Assembly: GCA_009926865.1 (NCBI GenBank)
Contig: RFOD01000004.1
Span: forward strand, 1 to 64,000
Length of the DNA stretch: 64,000 nucleotides
Direction of reading: 5' to 3'
Source of the DNA: Gammaproteobacteria bacterium
GTDB taxonomy: Bacteria; Pseudomonadota; Gammaproteobacteria; Steroidobacterales; Steroidobacteraceae
Part shown: one piece after another, positions 22,108 through 35,068 of the stretch
How the letters are laid out: every line of letters begins with the position of its first letter
Numbering within the stretch: the stretch's first letter is position 1
Notes under the pieces: model-generated
Database searches by the model: none
What the model saw: the letters and a program-made list of their open reading frames with translations, nothing else
Told to the model about the DNA's origin: nothing
Program-made: the position numbers and the translations under genes

Positions 22108-24147
22108 ATGAACTCTGTTTTCCCGCATCGGGGAGCGCTGCTGCTCACACTTTTGGGATGGGCCCTCGCGCCAGCTTTGGTACACGCCCAATCCGCGGAC
22201 GGCCCACGTATCACCCCTAATTTCAAAGATGCGGATATCACTCAGGTGATCGAAGCCGTCGCCGCGGCGACGGGTCGTAACGTGATCATTGATCCGCGGG
22301 TACGCGCGCAAGTCACCATGCTCTCGCAGACGCCGATGAGCCCCGATGAATTCTATGAGGCGTTTCTCGCGCTACTACAGGTGCACGGCTTTGCTGCCGT
22401 TCCCTCTGGGCAGGTGGTCAAAATCGTCCCCGATGCGAACATGCGCACGATGCCGGGCAACGATCTCGCCCCCGATGTCAGCGCCACCTCCGATGAGCTC
22501 GTCACGCAGGTCGTCAGCGTCAATAACGTGAGCGCCGCGCAGCTGGTCGCCATTCTGCGACCCCTGATGCAGCAAAATGCGCATCTCGCCGCTTACCCCG
22601 CCTCAAATACTTTGATCCTCTCGGATCGAGCCAATAACGTGAATCGGATGCTGCGCATTATTCGTCGCATCGATCAGGCCAATGATTCGGATATTGAATT
22701 AGTCGCCATGCAAAATGTTTCGGCGGCCGAAGTCGTGCGCACGATTAACGCCCTGAATCCCGCCCAGACCCAAGGCGAAGGTGGCATGGCGCCGCTACGC
22801 ATGGTGGCTGATGAGCGCTCCAACAGTATCCTGCTTGCGGGCGATGCCACCCAGCGTTTGCGCGTACGGACCCTGATCGCCTATCTCGATACGCCGCTCG
22901 CAGAAGGCGGTGACACACGAGTGCGCTATCTGCGCTATGCCGATGCCGAGGCAATCGCGACTAAGCTCAAAGAACAAATGGCCGCAAGCGGGACAGGTGC
23001 CGCAGCTGCCAACAGCACTTCGACGGGCGGCATCACCACCACTATTTGGGCTGAACCCGAGACCAATGCGCTCGTCATCACAGCGCCCGCCAAAGTCATG
23101 AAATCTTTGATGGGTGTGGTGGACAAACTGGATATCCGTCGCGCACAAGTCATCGTCGAGGCCATTATTGTCGAAGTGTCCGCTGATAAATCCGCTGAGC
23201 TCGGGGTCAATTGGCTGGTCGACGGCTCACTTGCAGATAATGCCGTCGGCGGATTCATTGAACCTGTCGGTGGCGTGAGTATTGTCGATCTTGCCCGTGC
23301 GGCGAACGACCCCACAACCCTGACCTCCGTTCCACGCGGCACCACCGTCGGAATCGGCCGACTGGGCGATACCGGCGTGAATTTCGCCGCCATCCTTCGT
23401 GCGTTGCGTGGCGACTCCACCACTAACATTATCGCTACACCGTCGATCGTCACGATGGATAACGAAGAGGCCGAAATCAAAGTCGCACAGGAAGTGCCCT
23501 TTGTCACTGGCCAATATTCCAGCACAGGCGGTAACGCCAACAATAATTTCCTCAATCCCTTTCAGACGATTCAGCGACAGGAAGTCGGCACGATTCTGAA
23601 AATTACCCCGCAAATCAATGAAGGCGATGCGGTGATGCTCAAGATCGAGCAAGAGAGCTCAAGTATCGCCGCGACGAGCTCTGGCGCGGTGGATCTGGTC
23701 ACGAATAAGCGCACCATTAGCACCCACGTGTTGATTGAAGATGGTGGCACGGTCGTGCTCGGGGGATTAATCCAAGATTCACAGACGGGCGGCGAGCAGC
23801 GCGTACCATTTTTGGGTCGGATCCCTGTGATTGGCGAAGCCTTTCGGACCCGCAGTGCCAAGAAAACCAAAACGAACTTGATGGTCTTTATTCAGCCACG
23901 CATCTTGCGTGATGGCACGGATACTCGTATCGAGACCAATCAAAAATATAACTATATGCGTGATCAGCAATTGCGGTTGGGGCCCTCAAGCGGGCGTATC
24001 CCGCTGTTGCCGGGTGAGCGCCGAGCCGAATTACCCGCGATCCCGACGACCACTCCGCCCACGACCACCCCGCCCACGAGCGCGCCGTCTACAGCGACGC
24101 CTTCCGCCTCATCCGTCACAGACACGCAAGACGCGCCCATCGATTAA
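22108..24147 (+). CDS. gspD: type II secretion system secretin GspD
   Basis: A 679-residue outer-membrane channel subunit. A signal peptide (about residues 1-28) precedes the N0 domain ([20 protein letters not shown]), three KH-like N1-N3 domains, and the secretin core with VPFVTGQYS, the [17 protein letters not shown] strand and the conserved [17 protein letters not shown] end. A Thr/Pro-rich tail (about residues 640-679) takes the place of the S-domain. Its TAATG stop/start overlap with gspE implies coupled translation. Confidence 0.95.
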
Positions 24148-25610
24148 TGAGTGAGTCCTTTGTATTACCTCTAAGCTTTATGCGTCGGCACGGCGTGCTG
24201 CTACGCAAACTGGAACCCGGGGTCGCCACGTTGGCGCTGCGAGCCGATGCCAACCCGAGCAGCATTGCCGAAGCACAGCGACACCTCGAAGTACCCCGGG
24301 TGATTTTAGAGCCCGTCAGTCACGATATCTTTGAACGCTGGTTACGCGAGGCGTATGAAAGCGGCCAAGATGCCGCCGTGGCGGCCGGCAGTCTAGATGA
24401 GGCGAGTGATCTGAGCTTTCTCGCCCAGGATCTTCCAGAGCAGGCGGACCTGTTAGAAAGCGATGACGACGCACCGATCATTCGCCTTATCAATGCGCTC
24501 TTGGCCCAAGCTGTGAGAGATAACGCCTCGGATATTCATATCGAGCCCTATGAAAATCGATTGATCGTACGCTTGCGGGTCGATGGCGTATTGCGCGAGG
24601 TCTTACAAACCAAGCGAGCGGTCGCCGCTGCAGTCGTCTCACGTATCAAAGTAATGGCGAAACTCGATATCGCCGAAAAGCGCTTGCCGCAAGATGGGCG
24701 AATCGGGCTGCGCGTCGCGGGACGCGCAGTGGATGTGCGCGTCTCCACCATCCCGTCGGGTCATGGCGAACGCGTTGTACTGCGTCTACTTGATAAACAG
24801 GCTGGTCGCCTGGACTTGGCGGAGCTCGGTTTAGCGCCTGAACTGCAAGCGCAGCTCGATGCCCTTATCCATAAACCCAATGGGATTTTATTGGTGACTG
24901 GCCCTACCGGCTCGGGCAAAACGACGACGCTTTACTCCGCACTTAGCCGCCTCAACGATGCGACGCGCAACATCATGACGGTCGAAGACCCGATTGAATA
25001 TTACTTAGATGGCGTTGGCCAAACACAAGTCAATCCAAAAGTCGATATGAGCTTCGCGCGCGGCTTACGTGCGATTTTGCGCCAAGATCCCGATATCGTT
25101 ATGGTGGGTGAGATTCGCGATCTCGAGACCGCGCAGATTGCAGTCCAAGCTTCACTCACCGGGCACCTAGTCCTCTCCACGCTACACACCAATACCGCGA
25201 TCGGCGCGATTACCCGTCTGCGCGATATGGGAATAGAGCCCTTTTTATTGGCCTCGAGTTTGATTGGGATTGTCGCGCAGCGTCTCGTGCGTACACTCGA
25301 TGAGTCGCGCCTGGCCTACACCGCATCAGACCTCGAGCGTAGCGCACTCAATATTGAACCGACCGCCGCAGAGACCACCCTCTATCGGGCGAACCCCAAT
25401 ACAGCGGGCTTCCGCGGTCGCACAGGAATCTATGAAGTCGTGGTCGTCGATGACACCCTAAGACGCTTAATTCACGATGGCGCCTCAGAGGCCGAGTTGG
25501 AGCAGCACGCTCGCACACTCACCCCCTCGATTCGTGAGGATGGACGTGCCAAAGTATTACGCGGCGAGACGACGCTCGACGAAGTGCTGCGCGTCACACG
25601 CGAAGACTAA
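24147..25610 (+). CDS. gspE: type II secretion system ATPase GspE, no zinc cysteines
   Basis: A 487-residue cytoplasmic hexameric ATPase driving pseudopilus assembly. It shows the N2 domain, [19 protein letters not shown], Walker [14 protein letters not shown] near residue 251, the Asp box [11 protein letters not shown], Walker [17 protein letters not shown] and the His box [16 protein letters not shown]. The region between about residues 380 and 425, where GspE proteins usually carry a zinc-binding tetracysteine module before YRGRTGIYE, has no cysteine at all. The rest of the ATPase motifs are intact. The start overlaps the gspD stop by 1 bp. Confidence 0.93.
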
Positions 25611-25631
25611 ATGGTGAGTTAAGAGTCGGCG

Positions 25632-26873
25632 ATGCCCGCATTCGAGTACACAGCGATCGATGCGAACGCCCGCGAACAGCGTGGTGTATTGGAGGGTGAT
25701 AACCCCAAGCAGATCCGTCAGCAGCTACGTGACCGGGGTTGGTTACCGACCTCGGTAGAGCCGCTGACTACGAACGCACGCCGCTCGGATCCGGCCCAGC
25801 GCGAGAGCCTGCTCTCCCGCCGTATCGAATGGCGGGCACCGGTGAACGCCCAGGATCTATCGCTACTCACTCGACAACTCGCCACCCTTGTCCGTGCAGC
25901 GCTACCTCTGGATGAAGCCCTGCAGGCGGTCGCCGAACAGTCAGAAAAGCCCGCCGTGCAACGCGTGGTGCGCGCCGTGCGCGCGCGGGTCGTGGAGGGC
26001 GAGCCTTTGGCTGCTGCGCTCAGTGAATTCCCACGCGTTTTTACGCCGCTTTATCGCTCAACCGTGGCTGCAGGTGAACAGGCGGGTAAACTCGATATCG
26101 TGCTCGAGCGACTCGCCGATTACACCGAGAGCCGTGATGTGATGCGCCAACGCGTCCTCGGTGCGCTCCTCTACCCCATGGTGCTCACCGTCATGTCACT
26201 GGTCATCGTGGCAGGACTCTTGACCTATGTGGTACCCAAGGTGGTCGAAGTCTTTGAGGCGGGCAATAACACCCTGCCTTGGCTCACCCGCGCGCTACTT
26301 TTTTTAAGTGACGGCCTACGCGACTACGGCCTACTGTTACTAGCGGTCATCCTGCTCGCTAGCCTGCTCGGTTGGCGAGCTCTAAAAGAACCGCAGACCC
26401 GTCTACGTGTGGACGCTTGGCTACTCAAGACGCCGGTGGTCGGCCGCATCTTGCGCGGGATGGAAACCGCCCGCTTCACCCGCACATTCAGCATCTTGAC
26501 AGGGAGTGCGGTACCCGTGCTCGAGGCACTGAGCATTGCGGCAGGCGTGATCGCCAATCGACCCATGCGACAGGCGGTTGAACATGCGGCCGAGCGGGTA
26601 CGCGAAGGCGCCGCAATCGGTCGCGCCTTGGCAGCGAGTAAACTCTTTCCGCCTATGATGGTGCACCTCATTTCAAGCGGCGAATCGAGTGGCCGGCTCG
26701 AGGACATGCTCGAGCGTGCGGCGGCCAACCAAGAGCGCGAACTCGACAGTATTCTGACAGCCATGGTGGGGCTGCTTGGACCTTTGCTGATCATCGCCAT
26801 GGGGGTCTTCGTGCTCCTGATTGTGTTTGCCATGCTGCTACCGATTTTCGAGATGAATACCCTCATCCGTTGA
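25632..26873 (+). CDS. gspF: type II secretion system inner-membrane platform protein GspF
   Basis: A 413-residue polytopic protein of the secretion platform. It opens with the family motif MPAFEYTAIDANAREQRG and has two homologous cytoplasmic domains (LLTRQLATLVRAALPLDEAL... and FTRTFSILTGSAVPVLEAL...), each with the glycine-rich GEQAGKLD or GESSGRLE signature, and membrane helices near residues 175-200, 225-245 and 380-405. It is 21 bp after gspE and is the last gsp gene here: no pseudopilin or gspL/M follows, so the rest of the system must be elsewhere. Confidence 0.95.
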   Translation: MPAFEYTAIDANAREQRGVLEGDNPKQIRQQLRDRGWLPTSVEPLTTNARRSDPAQRESLLSRRIEWRAPVNAQDLSLLTRQLATLVRAALPLDEALQAVAEQSEKPAVQRVVRAVRARVVEGEPLAAALSEFPRVFTPLYRSTVAAGEQAGKLDIVLERLADYTESRDVMRQRVLGALLYPMVLTVMSLVIVAGLLTYVVPKVVEVFEAGNNTLPWLTRALLFLSDGLRDYGLLLLAVILLASLLGWRALKEPQTRLRVDAWLLKTPVVGRILRGMETARFTRTFSILTGSAVPVLEALSIAAGVIANRPMRQAVEHAAERVREGAAIGRALAASKLFPPMMVHLISSGESSGRLEDMLERAAANQERELDSILTAMVGLLGPLLIIAMGVFVLLIVFAMLLPIFEMNTLIR

Positions 26874-26988: not shown

Positions 26989-27246
26989 ATGAACGAACGA
27001 CCAGAACAAGACGAATTCGATGATGAGGACGCGCTCGATTCAGATGACAACTTGGATGATGTCTTTCGCGATATAGATCAATCACGCCGACGTAGCGCAG
27101 CCCCCAAGGGGGGAGATCCGGCTTGGCGCCGTCTGGAACGTCTGCGGGAAGAAAAACATACCGCCGAACTGACGAGCGACTTCGATGACTACGACATCGG
27201 CTTCGATGAGGACGGTGGAGCCCGTAAGGTTCGTCGGCGTCAATGA
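26989..27246 (+). CDS. small acidic protein, PA3496-like
   Basis: An 85-residue hydrophilic protein with an acidic N-terminus (DEFDDEDALDSDDNLDD), a basic centre (RRLERLREEKHTAEL) and a second acidic segment (DFDDYDIGFDED) before a basic end. The pattern of an RRLERxREE helix followed by an FDDYD stretch resembles the small PA3496 family of Pseudomonas, put forward as envelope-integrity proteins, but I cannot confirm homology by eye. There is no signal peptide or membrane helix. Its 3' end overlaps the 3' end of dnaE2 by 7 bp in convergent orientation. Confidence 0.55.
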   Translation: MNERPEQDEFDDEDALDSDDNLDDVFRDIDQSRRRSAAPKGGDPAWRRLERLREEKHTAELTSDFDDYDIGFDEDGGARKVRRRQ

Positions 27247-30200
27247 AAGTCTCGACTACGGGTCAATAGTTGGCCGAGCCAGGCGCTGAGATCGCGCACT
27301 CGGCTCACGACCACATGGGTCACGCCCGATTGACGCTGCACTCGTCCCTCCACCTGCATGAAGCGTGCACCGAGGAGTGCGGATCGATAGCGCTGTGATA
27401 GCGCTCGCCAGACGATGAGATTGATATAACCCGTATCATCTTCAAGCGTCACAAACGTCACGCCGCCGGCCGTCGCGGGCTTTTGACGTGCGGTGACCAG
27501 CCCCGCTACCGACACCTGAGCGCCTGAAGGTCTTTGGGCAAGCGCCGTGGCGGTTAATACGCCTAGCGTATCCAGACGGGATCGCAATAGCGCGACAGGG
27601 TGACGACCCAGCGTCAAGCCAAGGTGCCGGTAATCCGCCACGATATCCTCGCCTTCTGTGGGTGCTCTGAGCAACGGCACCGCCACCTCTGCCGACGCTG
27701 GCGCTAACGGTAGATTTTTCTCGACGCCCGCCACTTGCCAAAACGCTCGATGGCGATGCCCACTCAACCCCGCAAGCGCGCCGGCAGCGGCGAGGGCCTC
27801 AAGATCGCCACGATCAAAACCGTACTGCTGCAAGATCCCAAAGATATCTATCACCGCCTTTTCATCGATAGCCCGACGCCCTTCAAGCCAACGCATAACA
27901 GGCGCTTGCGATAAGCCTCGCACCATACGCAGCCCTAGGCGAATCGCGGGTGGTTCGAGTGTGCAGTCCCACTCGCTACGCATGAGATCAACGGGCTCAA
28001 TCGGCACCCCGTGCTGTCGCGCATCACGGATCAGCTGCGCCGGAGCATAAAAGCCCATGGGCTGACTATTGAGTAGTGCTGCGGTAAAGGCCGCAGGCTC
28101 ATGGCACTTGAGCCAAGCCGACACATAGACGAGTAAAGCAAAGCTAGCCGCATGTGACTCCGGAAAGCCATATTCACCAAAGCCTTTGATTTGCTCAAAG
28201 ATTCTTTGTGCGAAATCTTCTTTATAACCCCGCTCACGCATCCCACGAATGAGGCGTTCACCAAAGTGCCCTAAACCGCCTTGGCGCTTCCAAGCTGCCA
28301 TCGCGCGGCGCAAGGCATCCGCCTCACCCGGCGTGAAGCCTGCAGCCACCACAGCAAGCTGCATCACCTGCTCCTGAAAAATAGGTACGCCCAACGTACG
28401 CCTGAGGACGTCAGCCACCGCCTCACTGGGATAGGTCACGGGCTCCTCACCATTACGGCGGCGCAGATAAGGATGCACCATGTCACCTTGAATCGGACCA
28501 GGTCGCACGATCGCTACCTCGATCACAAGGTCATAGAAATTGCGTGGTCGTAAACGCGGCAGCATTGCCATTTGCGCGCGTGACTCGACTTGAAACACCC
28601 CGACTGAATCGCCGCGGCATAACATGTCATAGACTTGTGGATCCTCCGCAGGAATATCCGCGAGTGTCAATTCGCTCTGGTCCTGCGCTTTGCGCCAAGG
28701 CGCCAATAATTGCAGCGTTCGTCGAATGGCACTTAACATCCCGAGCGCCAAGACATCGACCTTAAGGAGCCCGAGTACATCCAAATCATCCTTGTCCCAC
28801 TGAATGACCGTTCGCTCGGGCATACTCGCGTTTTCGATCGGCACCAAGCTTGCCAACTCATCACGCGCAATCACAAAGCCCCCCACATGCTGCGACAGGT
28901 GACGGGGGAAGCCCAATAATTGCGGCGCGAGTTCCATGATGGCAGCCACTCGCCGCGCTCGCTGCGGATCGCGGATATCGCTCATATCAAAACCGGCTTC
29001 TCGCAGTCTCTCTGGGTCAATCGCCCTGTCCCAATGAGACACCGCTTTGGCAAGCTGCTCCACCTCGGGCAAGGAAAACCCTAGGGCTTTACCCAGATCT
29101 CGCAACACGCTACGTGGCCGATACCGAATGACCGTGGCCGTCAGGGCTGCGCGATGCCGACCATACTTTTGATAAATATATTGAATGACCTCTTCACGTC
29201 GCTCGTGCTCGAAGTCGACATCAATATCGGGGGGCTCGTTACGTTCACGAGAAATAAATCGCTCAAATAACATCGACATCCGCGCAGGATCCACTTCGGT
29301 GATCCCTAGGCAATAACAGACCGCCGAATTGGCGGCCGACCCTCGGCCCTGACACAGGATCTCTCGCTGACGAGCAAAGCTAACGATATCCTCGACCGTC
29401 AAAAAATAAGATTCATAACCTAACTCGGCAATCAGCTGTAGTTCGTGCTCAATCAGTGCGCGCACATACGCAGGCACTCTCTCACCCCAACGCTTTCGGG
29501 CACCGACTTCGACGAGCTTTCTTAACCATTCGCTAGCTGTGTAACTTTCAGGGACTAGCTCTCGCGGATACTCATAGCGTAATTCTTTGAGATTGAAGTG
29601 ACAGCGCGCCGCGATCTTCACAGTCTCAGCTAGTAACGAACGCGGATAGAGCCTCGCAAGTCTAGGTCGCTCGCGTAGATAGCGTTCACCATTAGCCAAA
29701 CTGCGACGACCCAAGCTGTGCACGGGCTGATTCAGACGAATCGCGGTCACTGCGTCATGCAAACGCCGGCGCGCGCGACTATGCATACACACCCCACCCG
29801 TGGCGACCTGTGGTAAGCCACTTGCGGCAGATAAGACCTCTAGATCGGCGAGCTGTTGCGTCTCAAACCCATCGCGCAGTAACTCGACCGCGATCCAAGC
29901 AGACCCCTGAAAATGCGCTTGTAGCCAGCGCGCACATTCCAATGTCGCCTCTTCCACCCCAGTTAATATGCGCTCGGGTACCCAAAGTAATAAGCAGTGC
30001 TCCGGCTGTACACAGTGCAATACATCATCGCGCGATAATCGGTAATCACCCTTCTCGGCAGCGCGGCGCCCACGAGTAATCAGCTGGCATAACTGTCCGT
30101 AACCTTGTCGATCGGCCGCTAGGATGATCAACTGCATCCCACACTGCAGACGACACTCACTACCAATGATCAAAGAAAATCGCTCGCGAACTGTATCTGG

Positions 30201-30410
30201 CAATGCGCGCCAAGCGGCATAGGCACGTACGACGCCGGCGACGGAACATTCATCTGTCACGGCCAAGGCACGATAGCCAAGTTCCGCAGCCCGCTCGATG
30301 AGCTCCTGCGGTTGCGACGCTGCACACAAGAAACTGAAGCTCGTCAGACAGTGCAACTCTGCATACGCGGGGATATCCGCAGCGGGAATCCCATCAACCA
30401 AAGACGCCAT
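27240..30410 (-). CDS. dnaE2: error-prone DNA polymerase DnaE2
   Basis: A C-family polymerase of about 1056 residues used for SOS mutagenesis together with ImuA and ImuB. The N-terminal PHP domain reads YAELHCLTSFSFLCAAS and LAVTDECSVAG. The polymerase active site shows GRGSAANS and PDIDVDFEHERR, with its Asp triad partner further on (VDVLALGML). The OB domain near the C-terminus has VTFVTLEDDTGYINLIVW. I chose the ATG at 30410 (MASLVDGIPAADIPAYAELHC) because family proteins begin near the PHP domain; it lies 17 bp inside imuB. Last gene of the lexA-orf74-imuA-imuB-dnaE2 operon. Confidence 0.95.
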   Translation of the reverse strand: MASLVDGIPAADIPAYAELHCLTSFSFLCAASQPQELIERAAELGYRALAVTDECSVAGVVRAYAAWRALPDTVRERFSLIIGSECRLQCGMQLIILAADRQGYGQLCQLITRGRRAAEKGDYRLSRDDVLHCVQPEHCLLLWVPERILTGVEEATLECARWLQAHFQGSAWIAVELLRDGFETQQLADLEVLSAASGLPQVATGGVCMHSRARRRLHDAVTAIRLNQPVHSLGRRSLANGERYLRERPRLARLYPRSLLAETVKIAARCHFNLKELRYEYPRELVPESYTASEWLRKLVEVGARKRWGERVPAYVRALIEHELQLIAELGYESYFLTVEDIVSFARQREILCQGRGSAANSAVCYCLGITEVDPARMSMLFERFISRERNEPPDIDVDFEHERREEVIQYIYQKYGRHRAALTATVIRYRPRSVLRDLGKALGFSLPEVEQLAKAVSHWDRAIDPERLREAGFDMSDIRDPQRARRVAAIMELAPQLLGFPRHLSQHVGGFVIARDELASLVPIENASMPERTVIQWDKDDLDVLGLLKVDVLALGMLSAIRRTLQLLAPWRKAQDQSELTLADIPAEDPQVYDMLCRGDSVGVFQVESRAQMAMLPRLRPRNFYDLVIEVAIVRPGPIQGDMVHPYLRRRNGEEPVTYPSEAVADVLRRTLGVPIFQEQVMQLAVVAAGFTPGEADALRRAMAAWKRQGGLGHFGERLIRGMRERGYKEDFAQRIFEQIKGFGEYGFPESHAASFALLVYVSAWLKCHEPAAFTAALLNSQPMGFYAPAQLIRDARQHGVPIEPVDLMRSEWDCTLEPPAIRLGLRMVRGLSQAPVMRWLEGRRAIDEKAVIDIFGILQQYGFDRGDLEALAAAGALAGLSGHRHRAFWQVAGVEKNLPLAPASAEVAVPLLRAPTEGEDIVADYRHLGLTLGRHPVALLRSRLDTLGVLTATALAQRPSGAQVSVAGLVTARQKPATAGGVTFVTLEDDTGYINLIVWRALSQRYRSALLGARFMQVEGRVQRQSGVTHVVVSRVRDLSAWLGQLLTRSRDFH

Positions 30411-31812
30411 GCAAATACCAAGCATGCGGCGGCCGACGTTCACGAAAGACCCAAACTTCAGCACCTTGCGGATCGAGGGCGTGATAGTAGTCACGCATCA
30501 CATCACGCCCATCCCACCAACCTGTTTCGATGCGCTCAGGTCCCGATAACCACTGTAACTGTCGCCAACACCATGGCAGAGGGTGTGGCTCGTGCAATAA
30601 CCAGAGCGGACGACGCGGAAGCCGCATCGGAGTGGCCTCAGAAATCGCAGCATATGCAGCACTCGTCCCAGCGCTCGTTGTAGCTAAACGCGGCTCAGCC
30701 ACACGATAAGCACACTCCGGTCGATGCTCATCGACAAGACAAAGACCGTACACCGCTTCATGTCCGAGCCGTGCCCGTAATCGCTCGATGAGAGCCGGAG
30801 ACTCTCGCCCCATTGCACCGCCGTGCTCACCGGGCTGCCAAAGATGATCACTCTGAGCCGTCATCGGTAAGAACACTGCCGCACGTAACTCCAAACCGAT
30901 CACGGTATCCGGTAATCGCTCCCGCGCCAGGCGCTCAGCGAACCAACGGGCGAAAGGCTCTGCGTGTGAGCTCGCCTGCGCGAGCGTCGCGCGCAGGAGG
31001 GTGTACTCGGGTGTCACTTGCAGAGAGCGTGCGCGATGTTGCAAACGCAGCTGCAAACACTCGATCGCTCGTTGCTGACGACGCAAAAATTGTTCAAGCG
31101 TCTGTAGCATCGGCTGTAGCTCACGCAAGATGAGTGCAGTATCGCGCAGCTCAAAATCCAGAGATCGCTGCACGCGAAAACGTAACGCCGAGGTCAGTCG
31201 TGGACGTGGGTCAGCCTGTCGACCGAGCAGACGATCTAGACTCGTAAGGCAACTGCGCCCATAGCGACGCGTGAACTCCGCGCGAGGTAAACGCAAAGCG
31301 GCACCGATCTCACGGACACCAATCGCCGCCAAACGCTCCACCGTCCGCTCTGGCCATCCCAGTGACGCCAAAGGTAATGAGGCTACTGCACTCACCAACT
31401 GGGAGCGCTGTAACACCATCTGACCCGGTACCGCACGAGCCAAAGCCAAAGCCGCCAAAGGGGTAGGTGCTAGGCCCCATCTGGGTTTGAGTTTAGCGCG
31501 CTGACAACGCTGCTGTAATCGCGCAAGTAAACGTTTGAGACCTCCAAAATATTGACGACTACGTCCTGCTTCGAGCAAAACCCCATCGGGAGCTTCGAGA
31601 CTGACTTGAGAACTGAACGCTTGCGCGATCTGACATAAACGTCTCTGTTTATCACTCTCTGGCTCACTGAGCGCGAGCCATAACTCCCGTGCCGACAGAC
31701 CTTCAGGCTCTTCACTGATCAGCTCTAATTCAGCCGAGGCGGGAGCGACTGCGGAGCGTGCACCCTGAGTTGGCGCAGCTATAGGTAATAAGGGTCGAGC
31801 ACTACGTCTCAC
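30394..31812 (-). CDS. imuB: ImuB, Y-family polymerase-like mutasome hub
   Basis: A 472-residue Y-family homologue that links DnaE2 to the beta clamp. It starts with GTG at 31812, overlapping the imuA stop by 4 bp. Recognisable parts are FSSQVSLEAPDGVLLEAGRSRQYFGG, the helix-hairpin-helix region LAAIGVREIGAALRLPRAEFTRRYG, and the little-finger region. Family members normally begin with an LWLxL strand at residue 1-5 and about 60 residues before the FTPxVSLE segment; here a different Ala/Pro-rich N-terminus precedes LWLAL near residue 45 and the usual leading segment is shortened. ImuB proteins lack polymerase catalytic residues, as seems the case here. Confidence 0.88.
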   Translation of the reverse strand: MRRSARPLLPIAAPTQGARSAVAPASAELELISEEPEGLSARELWLALSEPESDKQRRLCQIAQAFSSQVSLEAPDGVLLEAGRSRQYFGGLKRLLARLQQRCQRAKLKPRWGLAPTPLAALALARAVPGQMVLQRSQLVSAVASLPLASLGWPERTVERLAAIGVREIGAALRLPRAEFTRRYGRSCLTSLDRLLGRQADPRPRLTSALRFRVQRSLDFELRDTALILRELQPMLQTLEQFLRRQQRAIECLQLRLQHRARSLQVTPEYTLLRATLAQASSHAEPFARWFAERLARERLPDTVIGLELRAAVFLPMTAQSDHLWQPGEHGGAMGRESPALIERLRARLGHEAVYGLCLVDEHRPECAYRVAEPRLATTSAGTSAAYAAISEATPMRLPRRPLWLLHEPHPLPWCWRQLQWLSGPERIETGWWDGRDVMRDYYHALDPQGAEVWVFRERRPPHAWYLHGVFG

Positions 31813-32507
31813 AGCGGCGTCGCGCCCACACGAGAGTTTGGCTCAGATACTCTTTCAAACTCTGACCAAAGAAATTGACAGGGATTGCGTGATCCTCCCC
31901 GACTTTTGATGAGCTGAACTTGACCGCCGAGCCTCAACGGCTCGAATGTAAGACGTAACTCGGCGGTAGAAGGCTCGCGTAAGGCTTCCCAATCACGAAA
32001 CAAAAATACCGGAAAGCCACTGCGCTGCGCCGCCCATTGCAATCTGCGCAACATCTGGGCACGCTGCGCCGCCCGCGCATGCAAACCCCAGCATAGCGCC
32101 ACCGCACATGCTCCAGACTCCAAAGCCTGCTCAAGTGCCCATGCGGTCTCCGTCGTGCGAATCACTAACTGCCCAGCGAGTGGCATGCCATAGGCTTGTA
32201 GCGCCGGTGCATAGGGTTCAAAAGGAGGCGCCACCCACACCACCCAGCGTGCAGGGATGTGTTGACCCACCCTGCGCAACAAGGGGAGCAAGAGTCGTAA
32301 TTCGCCAAGCCCTGTGCGGCGCGTCAGGATCTCCGTCAGCCCGCCTGCAGGCCAACCCCCGCTCGGCAACTGAGCATCGAGTACTGCGCTGCCGCTCGAC
32401 AGCGTGGGACGCGTAGCCGCCTGTCGTCCGCGCCACAACGCCGGATGTTGTAGCAAGGACTCAAGCGAGGTATCGCCCGTCGTCTGCTGCGGACGGACCG
32501 AAGACAT
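31809..32507 (-). CDS. imuA: ImuA, RecA-like SOS mutasome protein
   Basis: A 232-residue RecA-fold protein of the translesion mutasome. It shows ALWRGRQ near residue 25, SGSAVLDAQLPSGGWPAGGLTEIL, a central strand WVVWVAPPFEPYAPALQAYG and TETAWALEQALESGACAVALCW. This matches the ImuA/SulA-like family rather than RecA itself, since no complete Walker A GPESSGKT is present. A GAGGGG ribosome binding site lies 7 bp before the ATG, inside the 11-bp gap after orf74. It is translationally coupled to imuB. Confidence 0.92.
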   Translation of the reverse strand: MSSVRPQQTTGDTSLESLLQHPALWRGRQAATRPTLSSGSAVLDAQLPSGGWPAGGLTEILTRRTGLGELRLLLPLLRRVGQHIPARWVVWVAPPFEPYAPALQAYGMPLAGQLVIRTTETAWALEQALESGACAVALCWGLHARAAQRAQMLRRLQWAAQRSGFPVFLFRDWEALREPSTAELRLTFEPLRLGGQVQLIKSRGGSRNPCQFLWSEFERVSEPNSRVGATPL

Positions 32508-32518
32508 GACACCACCCC

Positions 32519-32743
32519 TCAGTCCGTCAGGAGAGGCGCAGCCGGCGACGACACCCCGGGAGTACTCAGCGACGTTGCGCTACGTAACGAGCGCGGCTGA
32601 GAAAACCAGCCGGTCCGACCGCAACCACACGGACAACTAAATCGCCGTAGTGATGATTTTTTTGAAGGACGAGAAGCTCGGCCGTTTTTGAAGACAAAGC
32701 CGCTCCCAACGCCCGGTGACGGGCGCAGTTCGAAAGTAGACAT
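32519..32743 (-). CDS. unrecognised 74-aa protein inside the SOS mutasome operon (orf74)
   Basis: A small basic Ser/Pro/Arg-rich protein that I do not recognise. It has a compact central motif, SCPCGCGRTGW, with three cysteines in CPCGC spacing that could bind a metal or form a disulfide. It fits tightly between lexA (18-bp gap) and imuA (11-bp gap) on the same strand. A CGAGG ribosome binding site lies 6 bp before its ATG. No LexA box or obvious promoter sits between lexA and imuA, so if expressed it would be induced with the operon. Composition is low in complexity, so a non-coding spacer with a chance ORF remains possible. Placement by position resembles the sulA-type slot after lexA in pseudomonads, but no SulA similarity is seen. 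Confidence 0.5.
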   Translation of the reverse strand: MSTFELRPSPGVGSGFVFKNGRASRPSKKSSLRRFSCPCGCGRTGWFSQPRSLRSATSLSTPGVSSPAAPLLTD

Positions 32744-32761
32744 GATTAACCTCGGTAGGGT

Positions 32762-33388
32762 TTAGAGGGTCTTACCCTGCTCAGCACCGCGACGCAGTAC
32801 ACCCACCACCACGCCCTCAATAATCAAGGGCTCTTCACGCACATTGACCCGAATGGGTTCAAAGTCGGGATTTTCGGGTAGCAACCAGACGGTGGGACCT
32901 TCCTGCTTATAGCGCTTAACAGTGACCTCGTTCTCGAGTCGGGCGACGATGATCTGACGATTGCGCACATCGGGCGTACGATGCACAGCCACCAGATCGC
33001 CATCAAAAATACCGGCATCCTTCATGGACATGCCCACCACCTTCAGTAGGTAATGGGGACGAGGTGAAAAAATGCCAGGATCGATATCAAACCGTGCTTC
33101 GATATTCTCTTCTGCGAGAATGGGGCGCCCGGCGGCGACCCGCCCGATCAGCGGCAAACCCAGCTGTTCACGCAAAATATCTTTAAGCTGGATACCGCGC
33201 GATGTGCCCGGCACGAGTGAGATGACGCCCTTGCGCGCCAAGGCGCGTAAATGCTCTTCGGCCGCGTTGGCTGAGCGAAAGCCGAGCTCGTCGGCAATCT
33301 CAGCACGGGTGGGCGGCATGCCGGTTTCGGCAATGGTGCGTTGAATGAGACGGAGAATTTCGGTTTGTCTGGGAGTGAGATCTGACAT
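32762..33388 (-). CDS. lexA: LexA repressor
   Basis: A 208-residue SOS repressor and self-cleaving serine peptidase. The N-terminal winged helix has [30 protein letters not shown] and [12 protein letters not shown]. The cleavage site is A86-G87 in GRVAAGRPI. The catalytic dyad is S121 ([10 protein letters not shown]) and K158 (EVTVKRY). I chose the ATG at 33388 ([10 protein letters not shown]) for family fit; further upstream codons are not conserved. The gene carries its own LexA box 10 bp upstream and heads the mutasome operon, so it is autoregulated. Confidence 0.97.
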
Positions 33389-33397
33389 GGGACACCT

Positions 33398-33413
33398 CTG
33401 TTTATCCATACAG
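33398..33413 (-). promoter_or_regulatory. LexA (SOS) box
   Basis: The palindrome CTGTATGGATAAACAG on the minus strand is a perfect match to the enterobacterial/pseudomonad SOS box CTGT-N8-ACAG. It lies 10 bp upstream of the lexA ATG and 5 bp upstream of the GTG start of the divergent oxidoreductase gene. Confidence 0.93.
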
Positions 33414-33438
33414 TACCTGTGAATACATCCAGTCGCAA
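33410..33438 (-). promoter_or_regulatory. putative lexA promoter overlapped by the SOS box
   Basis: On the minus strand TTGCGA (33438-33433) and TACTGT (33415-33410) are 17 bp apart. The -10 element overlaps the first half of the LexA box, as expected for a LexA-repressed sigma70 promoter. The -35 element lies inside the first codons of the divergent gene. Confidence 0.55.
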
Positions 33439-35068
33439 GCCCTCGGGCGAAAAATTCGATGCCGTGATCATTGGCGGCGGACACAACGGTCTTGTCTGCG
33501 CCTGCTACCTTGCCTGCGCGGGCTGGAAAGTCGGGGTCTTCGAGCGTCGAGAGCGTGTTGGGGGCGCGGCAGTGACCGAAGAGTTCTGGCCGGGCTTTCG
33601 TAACTCCAGCGCGAGCTATACCGTCTCACTACTCGACCCTGAGATCATTCGTGACCTACATCTAGCGGCGCACGGGCTGCGGATCCTGACGCGGCCAATG
33701 CAGAATTTTCTGCCTCTAGAGCAAGGTGACTCATTCAGTGCTGGACCGAGCGTAGCCGATACCTTGGCAGAGGTCAGACGGTTCAGCGCACGCGATGCCG
33801 CACGACTCCCCGAATTCAATGAAATGCTCGGGCATGCGCTCACACTACTGCGCCATCTACTGAAGCGCACTCCCCCTACGGACCTTCAGCGCGGCCGTGA
33901 TCTATGGGAAGCCTTACGCTTTGGCTGGGAGCTACGCGCACTACCGTTACGGGTCCAGCGCGAACTGCATGAACTTTTTACGCGTAGCGCGGGTGAAATC
34001 TTAGATCACTGGTTTGAAAGCGCACCGCTCAAAGCCTTGTATGGTTTTGATTCTGTGGTCGGCAACTACGCAAGCCCTTACACGCCAGGTAGTGCCTATG
34101 TATTGCTGCACCATGCTTTTGGTGAGGTCAATGGCCAACCCGGCCTTTGGGGTCATGCGGTCGGCGGCATGGGTGCCATCAGCGATGCGATTGCTGCCGA
34201 GGCGCGTGCACTCGGTGTATATATTGAGTGCGATGCTCCGGTGAGTCGTATCCTGACGCGCCCTACCCGCGGGTCCAGCGCGTATGCTGCGATCGGCATT
34301 GAACTGGCTGATGGCAGACAGATGCTGGCCTCGCGTGTGGTCGGTAATCTTGGGCCAAAGCCCCTATTCTTGAATTTATTGTCTGCGGACGAGCTTCCCA
34401 AAGATTTCCGCGAACACATCGAACGCTGGCGAGTCGGCTCTGCCACTCTGCGTATGAATCTTGCGCTGTCGGAACTGCCGCAGTTCGCCGCCAAACGCTC
34501 GCGCACCGACACCCATCATCTCGGCGCGGGCATCATCATCGCGCCCTCACTGGGCTATATGGATCGCGCCTATGCCGAAGCGCGACTGCAGGGCCTCTCT
34601 TCAGAGCCCATCATCGAAATGCTGATTCCCTCAACCTTAGATGACAGTCTCGCCCCTCAAGGCCAGCATGTGGCGAGCCTCTTTTGCCAGCACTTTGACT
34701 ATCACGCTCCAGCGGGACGCAGTTGGCTTGATGAAGATTTGCGCACCGAGGCCGTCACTCGCATCTTCACCCAACTTGAGCGCCACATCCCCAATTTCCG
34801 CCGTAGCTTACTCGGCTACAGCCTACTGACGCCGCTCGATCTTGAAACGCGCTTCGCATTGGCAGGTGGCGATATTTTTCATGGTGCACTCGGACTCGAT
34901 CAGCTCTGGGCCGCACGTCCCGCACTCGGTTTTGCCGATTATCGTAGTCCCGTGCACGGACTCTATCTCTGCGGCGCGGGCGCTCATCCGGGTGGCGGGG
35001 TGACGGGTTTGCCCGGTCGTAATGCCGCGCGCGAAATACTACGTGATGGACGCAGCCGCGGACGTTGA
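33419..35068 (+). CDS. FAD-dependent oxidoreductase, phytoene desaturase/PYROXD2-like
   Basis: A 549-residue flavoprotein starting at GTG 33419. The N-terminal Rossmann fold reads [19 protein letters not shown], followed by [18 protein letters not shown]. The C-terminal FAD motif reads [23 protein letters not shown]. This is the CrtI/PYROXD2-type amine oxidase fold, but no carotenoid genes are near and the substrate is unknown. No ribosome binding site is visible ahead of the GTG, and the LexA box ends 5 bp before it, so the true 5' end is uncertain and LexA could affect this gene too. It is followed 12 bp later by the FkbM methyltransferase gene. Confidence 0.85.

Follow-up and report, generated by a model that had tools for sequence, protein, structure and literature searches.

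A conserved gene for a small basic protein between lexA and imuA in the lexA operon of one bacterial genus

Between lexA and imuA of an SOS mutasome operon we found a gene of 74 codons, orf74, which is a genuine protein gene under purifying selection. The small protein that it encodes had not been classified before and is so far known from a single genus, whose members are mostly freshwater bacteria. The initial annotation of the window (the whole 64-kb stretch of DNA analyzed here) had described an unrecognised gene in the lexA operon, and our results bear this out: the gene is conserved, protein-coding and without a family match. With roughly even confidence, we regard orf74 as a genuine, genus-restricted gene of the lexA operon that encodes a lineage-specific, very basic SOS protein, possibly with a metal knuckle, acting on the LexA side.

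Structure of the operon and LexA boxes

The features of the locus in the window are as follows.

27240..30413, minus strand: dnaE2 (imuC), error-prone polymerase (NCBIfam NF004225; start codon not settled, the ORF list runs to 30494)
30394..31812, minus strand: imuB, named from operon position and conservation
31809..32507, minus strand: imuA (NCBIfam NF033429, over the cut-off)
32519..32743, minus strand: orf74, encoding a conserved, small and basic protein of 74 aa that has a CPCGC core (homologues and codon test)
32597..32641, minus strand: conserved core of orf74, residues 35-49, FSCPCGCGRTGWFSQ (alignments A1 and A2, codon test by region)
32744..32755, minus strand: ribosome-binding region of orf74, CCGAGGTTAATC, directly 5' of the ATG
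32762..33388, minus strand: lexA (NCBIfam TIGR00498, E=9.9e-71)
33398..33413, minus strand: exact LexA box CTGTATGGATAAACAG, whose start is 25 bp upstream of the lexA ATG
33417..33432, minus strand: second LexA box CTGGATGTATTCACAG, one mismatch, 19 bp further upstream

The 74 codons of orf74 run on the minus strand from the ATG at 32743 to the end of the TGA at 32519, leaving an 18-bp gap to the end of the lexA stop (32762) and an 11-bp gap to the imuA start (32507). CCGAGG, which contains the ribosome site CGAGG, precedes the ATG, and the product contains the motif SCPCGCGRTGW. ORF, strand, gaps, ribosome site and motif thus agree with the initial annotation. The cassette genes lexA, imuA, imuB and dnaE2 stand in that order under a LexA box, imuB being assigned by position and conservation only; its frame gave no Pfam or NCBIfam match at 1e-5. 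Convergent secretion genes (T2SSE and T2SSF, 24147-26873) lie 3' of the operon and a divergent FAD oxidoreductase lies on its lexA side.

The single exact CTGTN8ACAG in the window is the box at 33398-33413 upstream of lexA. With up to one mismatch, nine matches were observed versus 15.5 expected by chance, which leaves the tandem pair at the promoter, with its exact box, as the only meaningful one; a further match, with one mismatch, falls within imuA at 32312-32327. The interval from lexA to imuA is free of LexA boxes, as had been annotated, the tandem pair being located upstream of lexA. Because this pair with its exact box precedes lexA, SOS co-induction of orf74 is likely, and the earlier proposal that orf74 is co-induced with lexA is probable, the boxes being present in the DNA and the transcript predicted from them. 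In the interval 32300-33500 there were no promoter-like sites and one terminator-like match, which lies inside orf74; neither count exceeded that of shuffled sequences.

Tandem LexA boxes preceded lexA in all 17 loci scored among the 22 fetched; for the remaining five, the start-codon search had missed the lexA start. A one-mismatch, box-like match in or at the end of lexA occurred in two of the 17 (G017 and G004). Across the window's own genome, CTGTNTNNNNNNACAG had 7 strand matches versus 13 for a control pattern, and a looser LexA-box pattern had 12 versus 5 for its control; these counts show that lexA is boxed, not that other genes are box-free.

Upstream of recA, no CTGTN8ACAG at up to two mismatches was detected in the 250 bp before the start used, in four of four genomes (loci L164, L165, L166 and L167 of G007, G016, G013 and G000); for G016 this start was an upstream GTG, and the scan left out the 48 bp before the ATG. 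An inverted outward pair, TATACAG ... CTGTATA, about 20 bp apart, is common to all four recA upstream regions by eye, and control of recA may differ here. A perfect LexA-like box, CTGTATAAATAAACAG, was also seen downstream of imuB in G007 (L140 1501-1516; G007:C22:29412-29427), where it adjoins two small ORFs of 94 and 104 aa. These gave no Pfam or NCBIfam match at 1e-5 and presumably resemble a BrnT/BrnA-type toxin-antitoxin pair.

Conservation, distribution and history of orf74

Frame conservation in relatives, by which the initial annotation had wanted its ORF to be judged, held up well. A profile search revealed orf74 homologues in 19 of the 24 genomes of the genus, the window's own included, each with a single copy, and none of the 19 frames contains an internal stop, compared with stops in 18 of 19 in the +1 frame and 13 of 19 in the +2 frame. 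All copies begin with ATG, after the start had been shifted in G009, G010 and G015 from a TTG further upstream to the conserved ATG and set by hand in G002, G014 and G021, and all length differences among them are whole codons. The gene follows lexA at 18-56 bp in 18 of the 19 carriers (G021 being counted from a 39-residue end of lexA at a contig edge), and in G011 a GST-glyoxalase gene lies between the two (L090 4708-5832; Pfam). By our count, orf74 directly precedes imuA in 18 of 19 carriers.

Selection at the codon level was measured in five hand-picked, phylogenetically independent sister pairs, which together had 79.5 synonymous differences over 286 sites and 51.5 nonsynonymous ones over 767 (pS 0.28 versus pN 0.07; p ~2e-15 in a binomial test that ignores transition bias). 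Nonsynonymous divergence was also below synonymous divergence in 171 of 171 orf74 pairs, which share history and are not independent. The constraint is concentrated in residues 1-12 (pS 0.51, pN 0.19) and the core (pS 0.67, pN 0.18), and the tail is near neutral (pS 0.62, pN 0.60). Invariant in alignment A1, which comprises 17 rows without G002 and G020, are M1, L6, G11, C37, P38, C39, G40, C41, F47, Q49 and R51; C37, P38, C39, G40, C41, F47 and Q49 are invariant in A2 as well. The CPCGC core is present in 18 of 19 homologues. In G002 the frame is open, but CPWSCDR stands in place of the core and the counterparts of F47 and R51 are altered as well; this suggests decay or a poor assembly (completeness 86%, contamination 6%). 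At loci L033 and L108 of this genome the damaged core suggests that the decay is recent.

No orf74 match was found in five genomes of the genus. Four of them (G006, G013, G018 and G022) have an intact, short lexA-imuA slot, in which imuA homology begins about 100 bp after the lexA stop; the fifth, G019, was not scorable, lexA not being found and imuA being cut at a contig end. The slots of G013, G018 and G022 retain an ATG...LRP..GA remnant at the old orf74 start, a sign of deletion. In a lexA plus imuA protein tree, built without G019 and with support below 0.9 at several deep nodes, the carriers G011 and G017 form the deepest branches of the genus. The simplest history is therefore a gain at or before the genus base, followed by losses in G006 and in the G013/G018/G022 clade. 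These at least two losses on the tree, together with the core damage in G002, indicate that orf74 is dispensable. In the same clade, dnaE2 lies about 35 kb from imuB in G013 (C2 91574-94792 versus 130885-132153) and G022 (C5 52691-53974 versus 88469-91666), the operon being split, and in G018 the two genes are on different contigs.

Several members of the genus bear names pointing to lakes (Erken, Baikal). Outside the genus we found no convincing relative in searches of 60, 396 and 369 genomes, the best weak match being one in G116 (E=2e-4). The order-wide sample gave matches at E<=0.01 in 33 of 396 genomes, which were 16 genus members and 17 weak matches (E 2e-4 to 0.0095), and the class-wide sample gave matches at 0.001 in 4 of 369, namely the window's own genome and three weak matches; both searches scored about 14-15 first-look candidates per genome, and a diverged relative could be missed at that depth. 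We took the weak extra-genus matches as chance; 25 weak-match loci from the 60- and 396-genome searches had no lexA or imuA match; a 33-residue, 48%-identical match in G025, which lies inside an imuA match, was dismissed likewise. When 84,980 species genomes were scanned with one pattern around CPCGC, 39 stretches were obtained, of which 17 were confirmed, all with ORFs identical to those of known genus members. Two public bins titled Klebsiella pneumoniae (L093, L100) carry the lexA-orf74 locus of the genus and are evidently mislabelled.

The lexA-imuA slot seems to accept varied genes. In other genera of the family, a glyoxalase-like ORF fills it by eye in G033 (L054) and G036 (L053). It measures 60-81 bp or is an overlap in G024, G026, G029 and G035, 275 bp in G027 and 18 bp in G031, and its 238 bp in G032 hold no ORF of 30 aa; in G025, G028, G030 and G034 lexA was not found within the stretch. 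The glyoxalase-type gene of G011 suggests that an ancestral lexA-VOC-imuA order was followed by the gain of orf74 and then by loss of the VOC gene. We propose that orf74 originated in the lexA-imuA gap or moved into it, no later than the base of the genus.

Properties of the protein and comparison with known families

The members of the family are 62-81 aa long with a pI of 9.8-11.8, and 18 of 19 have exactly three Cys, with no conserved His. None of the 19 has a membrane-like hydrophobic stretch, the largest 19-residue mean hydropathy ranging from -0.23 to 1.17. AlphaFold2 on 18 sequences returned a poor model (mean pLDDT 59.8, pTM 0.23) in which the only strands, both short and of low confidence, are residues 33-36 and 44-47. 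These data picture a basic protein that is flexible over most of its length and has a small hairpin with the Cys residues.

Searches against Pfam, NCBIfam, PHROGs, PDB and PADLOC gave sub-threshold matches or none. The sub-threshold candidates, DUF6527, zf-nanos, Ntox8, lachnocin, phrog_15183, phrog_35236 and PADLOC E2, were rejected. DUF6527 (Pfam PF20137) matched 15 of 17 members with a best E of 0.018; here, 11 residues around CPCGCG align with profile positions 5-15 of 63 (E 0.02), whereas the other 52 positions are unmatched and the score of 15.1 bits stays below the cut-off of 23.6. Comparison with the proteins of its own operon likewise yielded nothing: hhalign of A1 against the window ImuB gave a probability of 0.1% and against ImuA 0.0%, and no similarity to LexA was found.

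Among described systems, the imuABC cassette of the Pseudomonas/Xanthomonas type shares with the window operon its gene order, the LexA box before lexA and the LexA, ImuA and DnaE2 families (PMC3901139, PMC8072749). The window operon differs in having the extra conserved gene between lexA and imuA, which is kept by one relative without the whole imuABC part. A further parallel is found in Deinococcus, where lexA-imuY-dnaE2 operons hold a gene of about 80 aa that was first called hypothetical and later a standalone ImuB-C (PMC3901139, PMC8072749; ImuB-C is described in PMC3765255). Both genes are thus small additions of similar size to an SOS mutasome operon, but the Deinococcus gene sits between imuY and dnaE2 and orf74 between lexA and imuA. 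Judged against its own operon's ImuB, to which it is not similar even at the C-terminus, orf74 does not look like ImuB-C. Clustering of uncharacterised operon neighbours has, as outlined in PMC3765255, given two superfamilies, ImuB-C and DUF159/SRAP; for the latter, orf74 has no DUF159 model match and is far smaller than its 220-260 residues (PMC3765255). The titles and abstract openings among the papers listed mention no gene located in the lexA-imuA gap.

A metal knuckle in orf74 is plausible from the CPCGC conserved in 18 of 19 members, and its composition and this motif suggest that the protein may bind metal and nucleic acid, or perhaps protein. From a conserved peptide at its N-terminus, M..FELRPSPGA, it would continue through a basic linker of variable sequence to a short CPCGC core, perhaps shaped as a hairpin. 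This core probably binds metal as a knuckle, perhaps with ligands shared by two chains, because each chain has only three Cys and no conserved His.

Role of orf74 beside LexA and the mutasome

The relation of orf74 to its neighbours is best seen in genome G016 (1.4 Mb, 83% complete). On one 5.4-kb contig, the FAD oxidoreductase and tandem LexA boxes are succeeded by lexA and orf74, with convergent T2SSF and a T2SSE-like ORF coming directly after. This is the window locus minus imuA-imuB-dnaE2, T2SSF being the gene after dnaE2 in the window. Neither imuA nor imuB was found in the G016 assembly, and dnaE2 was not found either: the sole DnaE2 match is 30% identical and resembles the second, presumably replicative, copy seen in four of the five other genomes of that search. 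The orf74 core of G016 remains constrained in comparison with six relatives (pN 0.13-0.28, pS 0.83-1.00), and its ribosome site is weak by eye. Conversely, G006, G013, G018 and G022 keep imuA, imuB and dnaE2 without orf74, the imuA match of G006 holding one TGA, so that this gene may be broken. Since either part occurs without the other, neither appears to need the other, and a single mutasome-less carrier thereby argues for a role of orf74 on the LexA side rather than with the mutation-making enzymes. The loss of imuABC in G016 could be recent.

According to the proposed LexA-side role, the lexA promoter would drive orf74, the tandem boxes would make it DNA-damage inducible, and its product would be a cytosolic, strongly basic protein of 62-81 aa. 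More tentatively, we suggest that orf74 might be an SOS effector or feedback regulator that is new, born in this lineage and partnered with LexA. If this were true, the LexA operon of the streamlined G016 would consist of lexA and orf74 alone, and orf74 would maybe be among the very few LexA-controlled outputs left there, the stretch scanned before recA of G016 having shown no LexA box. With its CPCGC core, orf74 would then be a damage-response protein that resembles no known SOS protein. Cassettes of the lexA-imuABC kind are widespread and give rise to damage-induced mutation, and a conserved extra gene outlasting the missing mutagenic part suggests that the LexA response itself has a lineage-specific component.

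The G016 locus and the four opposite cases also weaken the earlier suggestion of an accessory factor of mutagenesis. Such a protein would aid ImuA-ImuB-DnaE2, for example in recruitment to DNA or RecA, and the position directly before imuA in nearly all carriers, with a transcription unit that is probably shared, is what one would expect of it. However, the gene persists where the three mutasome genes were not found, is absent from four genomes that have them (with the caveat on G006 imuA) and lacks similarity to the window ImuB, LexA and ImuA, and we consider this role unlikely.

Rather improbable, in our estimate, is an SOS cell-division inhibitor in place of SulA-, SidA-, YneA- or SosA-type proteins. 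Several small SOS division inhibitors adjoin lexA, and orf74 is kept with lexA in G016; its strong basic charge, however, is unlike the small membrane class of division inhibitors, and Pfam and NCBIfam returned no SulA match for it. Small damage-inducible inhibitors are known in several lineages (PMC4211646, PMC6851548, PMC6051672). With SidA, DidA, YneA, SosA and SulA orf74 shares small size, SOS linkage and proximity to lexA, whereas it differs in its charge, its Cys core and the missing SulA match, and the absence of a hydrophobic segment in all 19 members contrasts with the membrane-bound class of PMC6051672. Of the earlier idea of division arrest, the position near lexA stands, but the "sulA position" is held by ImuA, the SulA-like protein of the imuABC cassette (PMC3901139), and the window ImuA indeed matches the SulA family. 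Beyond the position the idea has no support, and the lack of a membrane segment speaks against the best-known type of small inhibitor.

That orf74 is a remnant or a toxin/antitoxin-like selfish gene parked in the operon appears very improbable to us. Lineage restriction, the fast-evolving linker and tail and the repeated loss would fit such a gene, but no conserved partner was seen beside orf74 except lexA and imuA, all 19 copies are single and at the lexA locus, and relatives on mobile elements were not found: 61 pattern matches in viral contigs included none confirmed as orf74, and plasmids and phages gave no match to the window protein. A chance ORF or a conserved non-coding element (leader or hairpin) between lexA and imuA is hardly credible. 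Some species do allow small hairpins to be drawn close to the ribosome site, but codon-level selection is strong, length changes are in frame, Rfam gave no match and the 51 nt around the start fold no better than sequences with shuffled dinucleotides (z averaging 0.33 over the 19 copies, compared with 0.06 for a control region downstream of the stop).

The gene is also a tractable example of a small orphan taken up by a core stress operon; its presence, decay and loss can all be seen inside a single genus.
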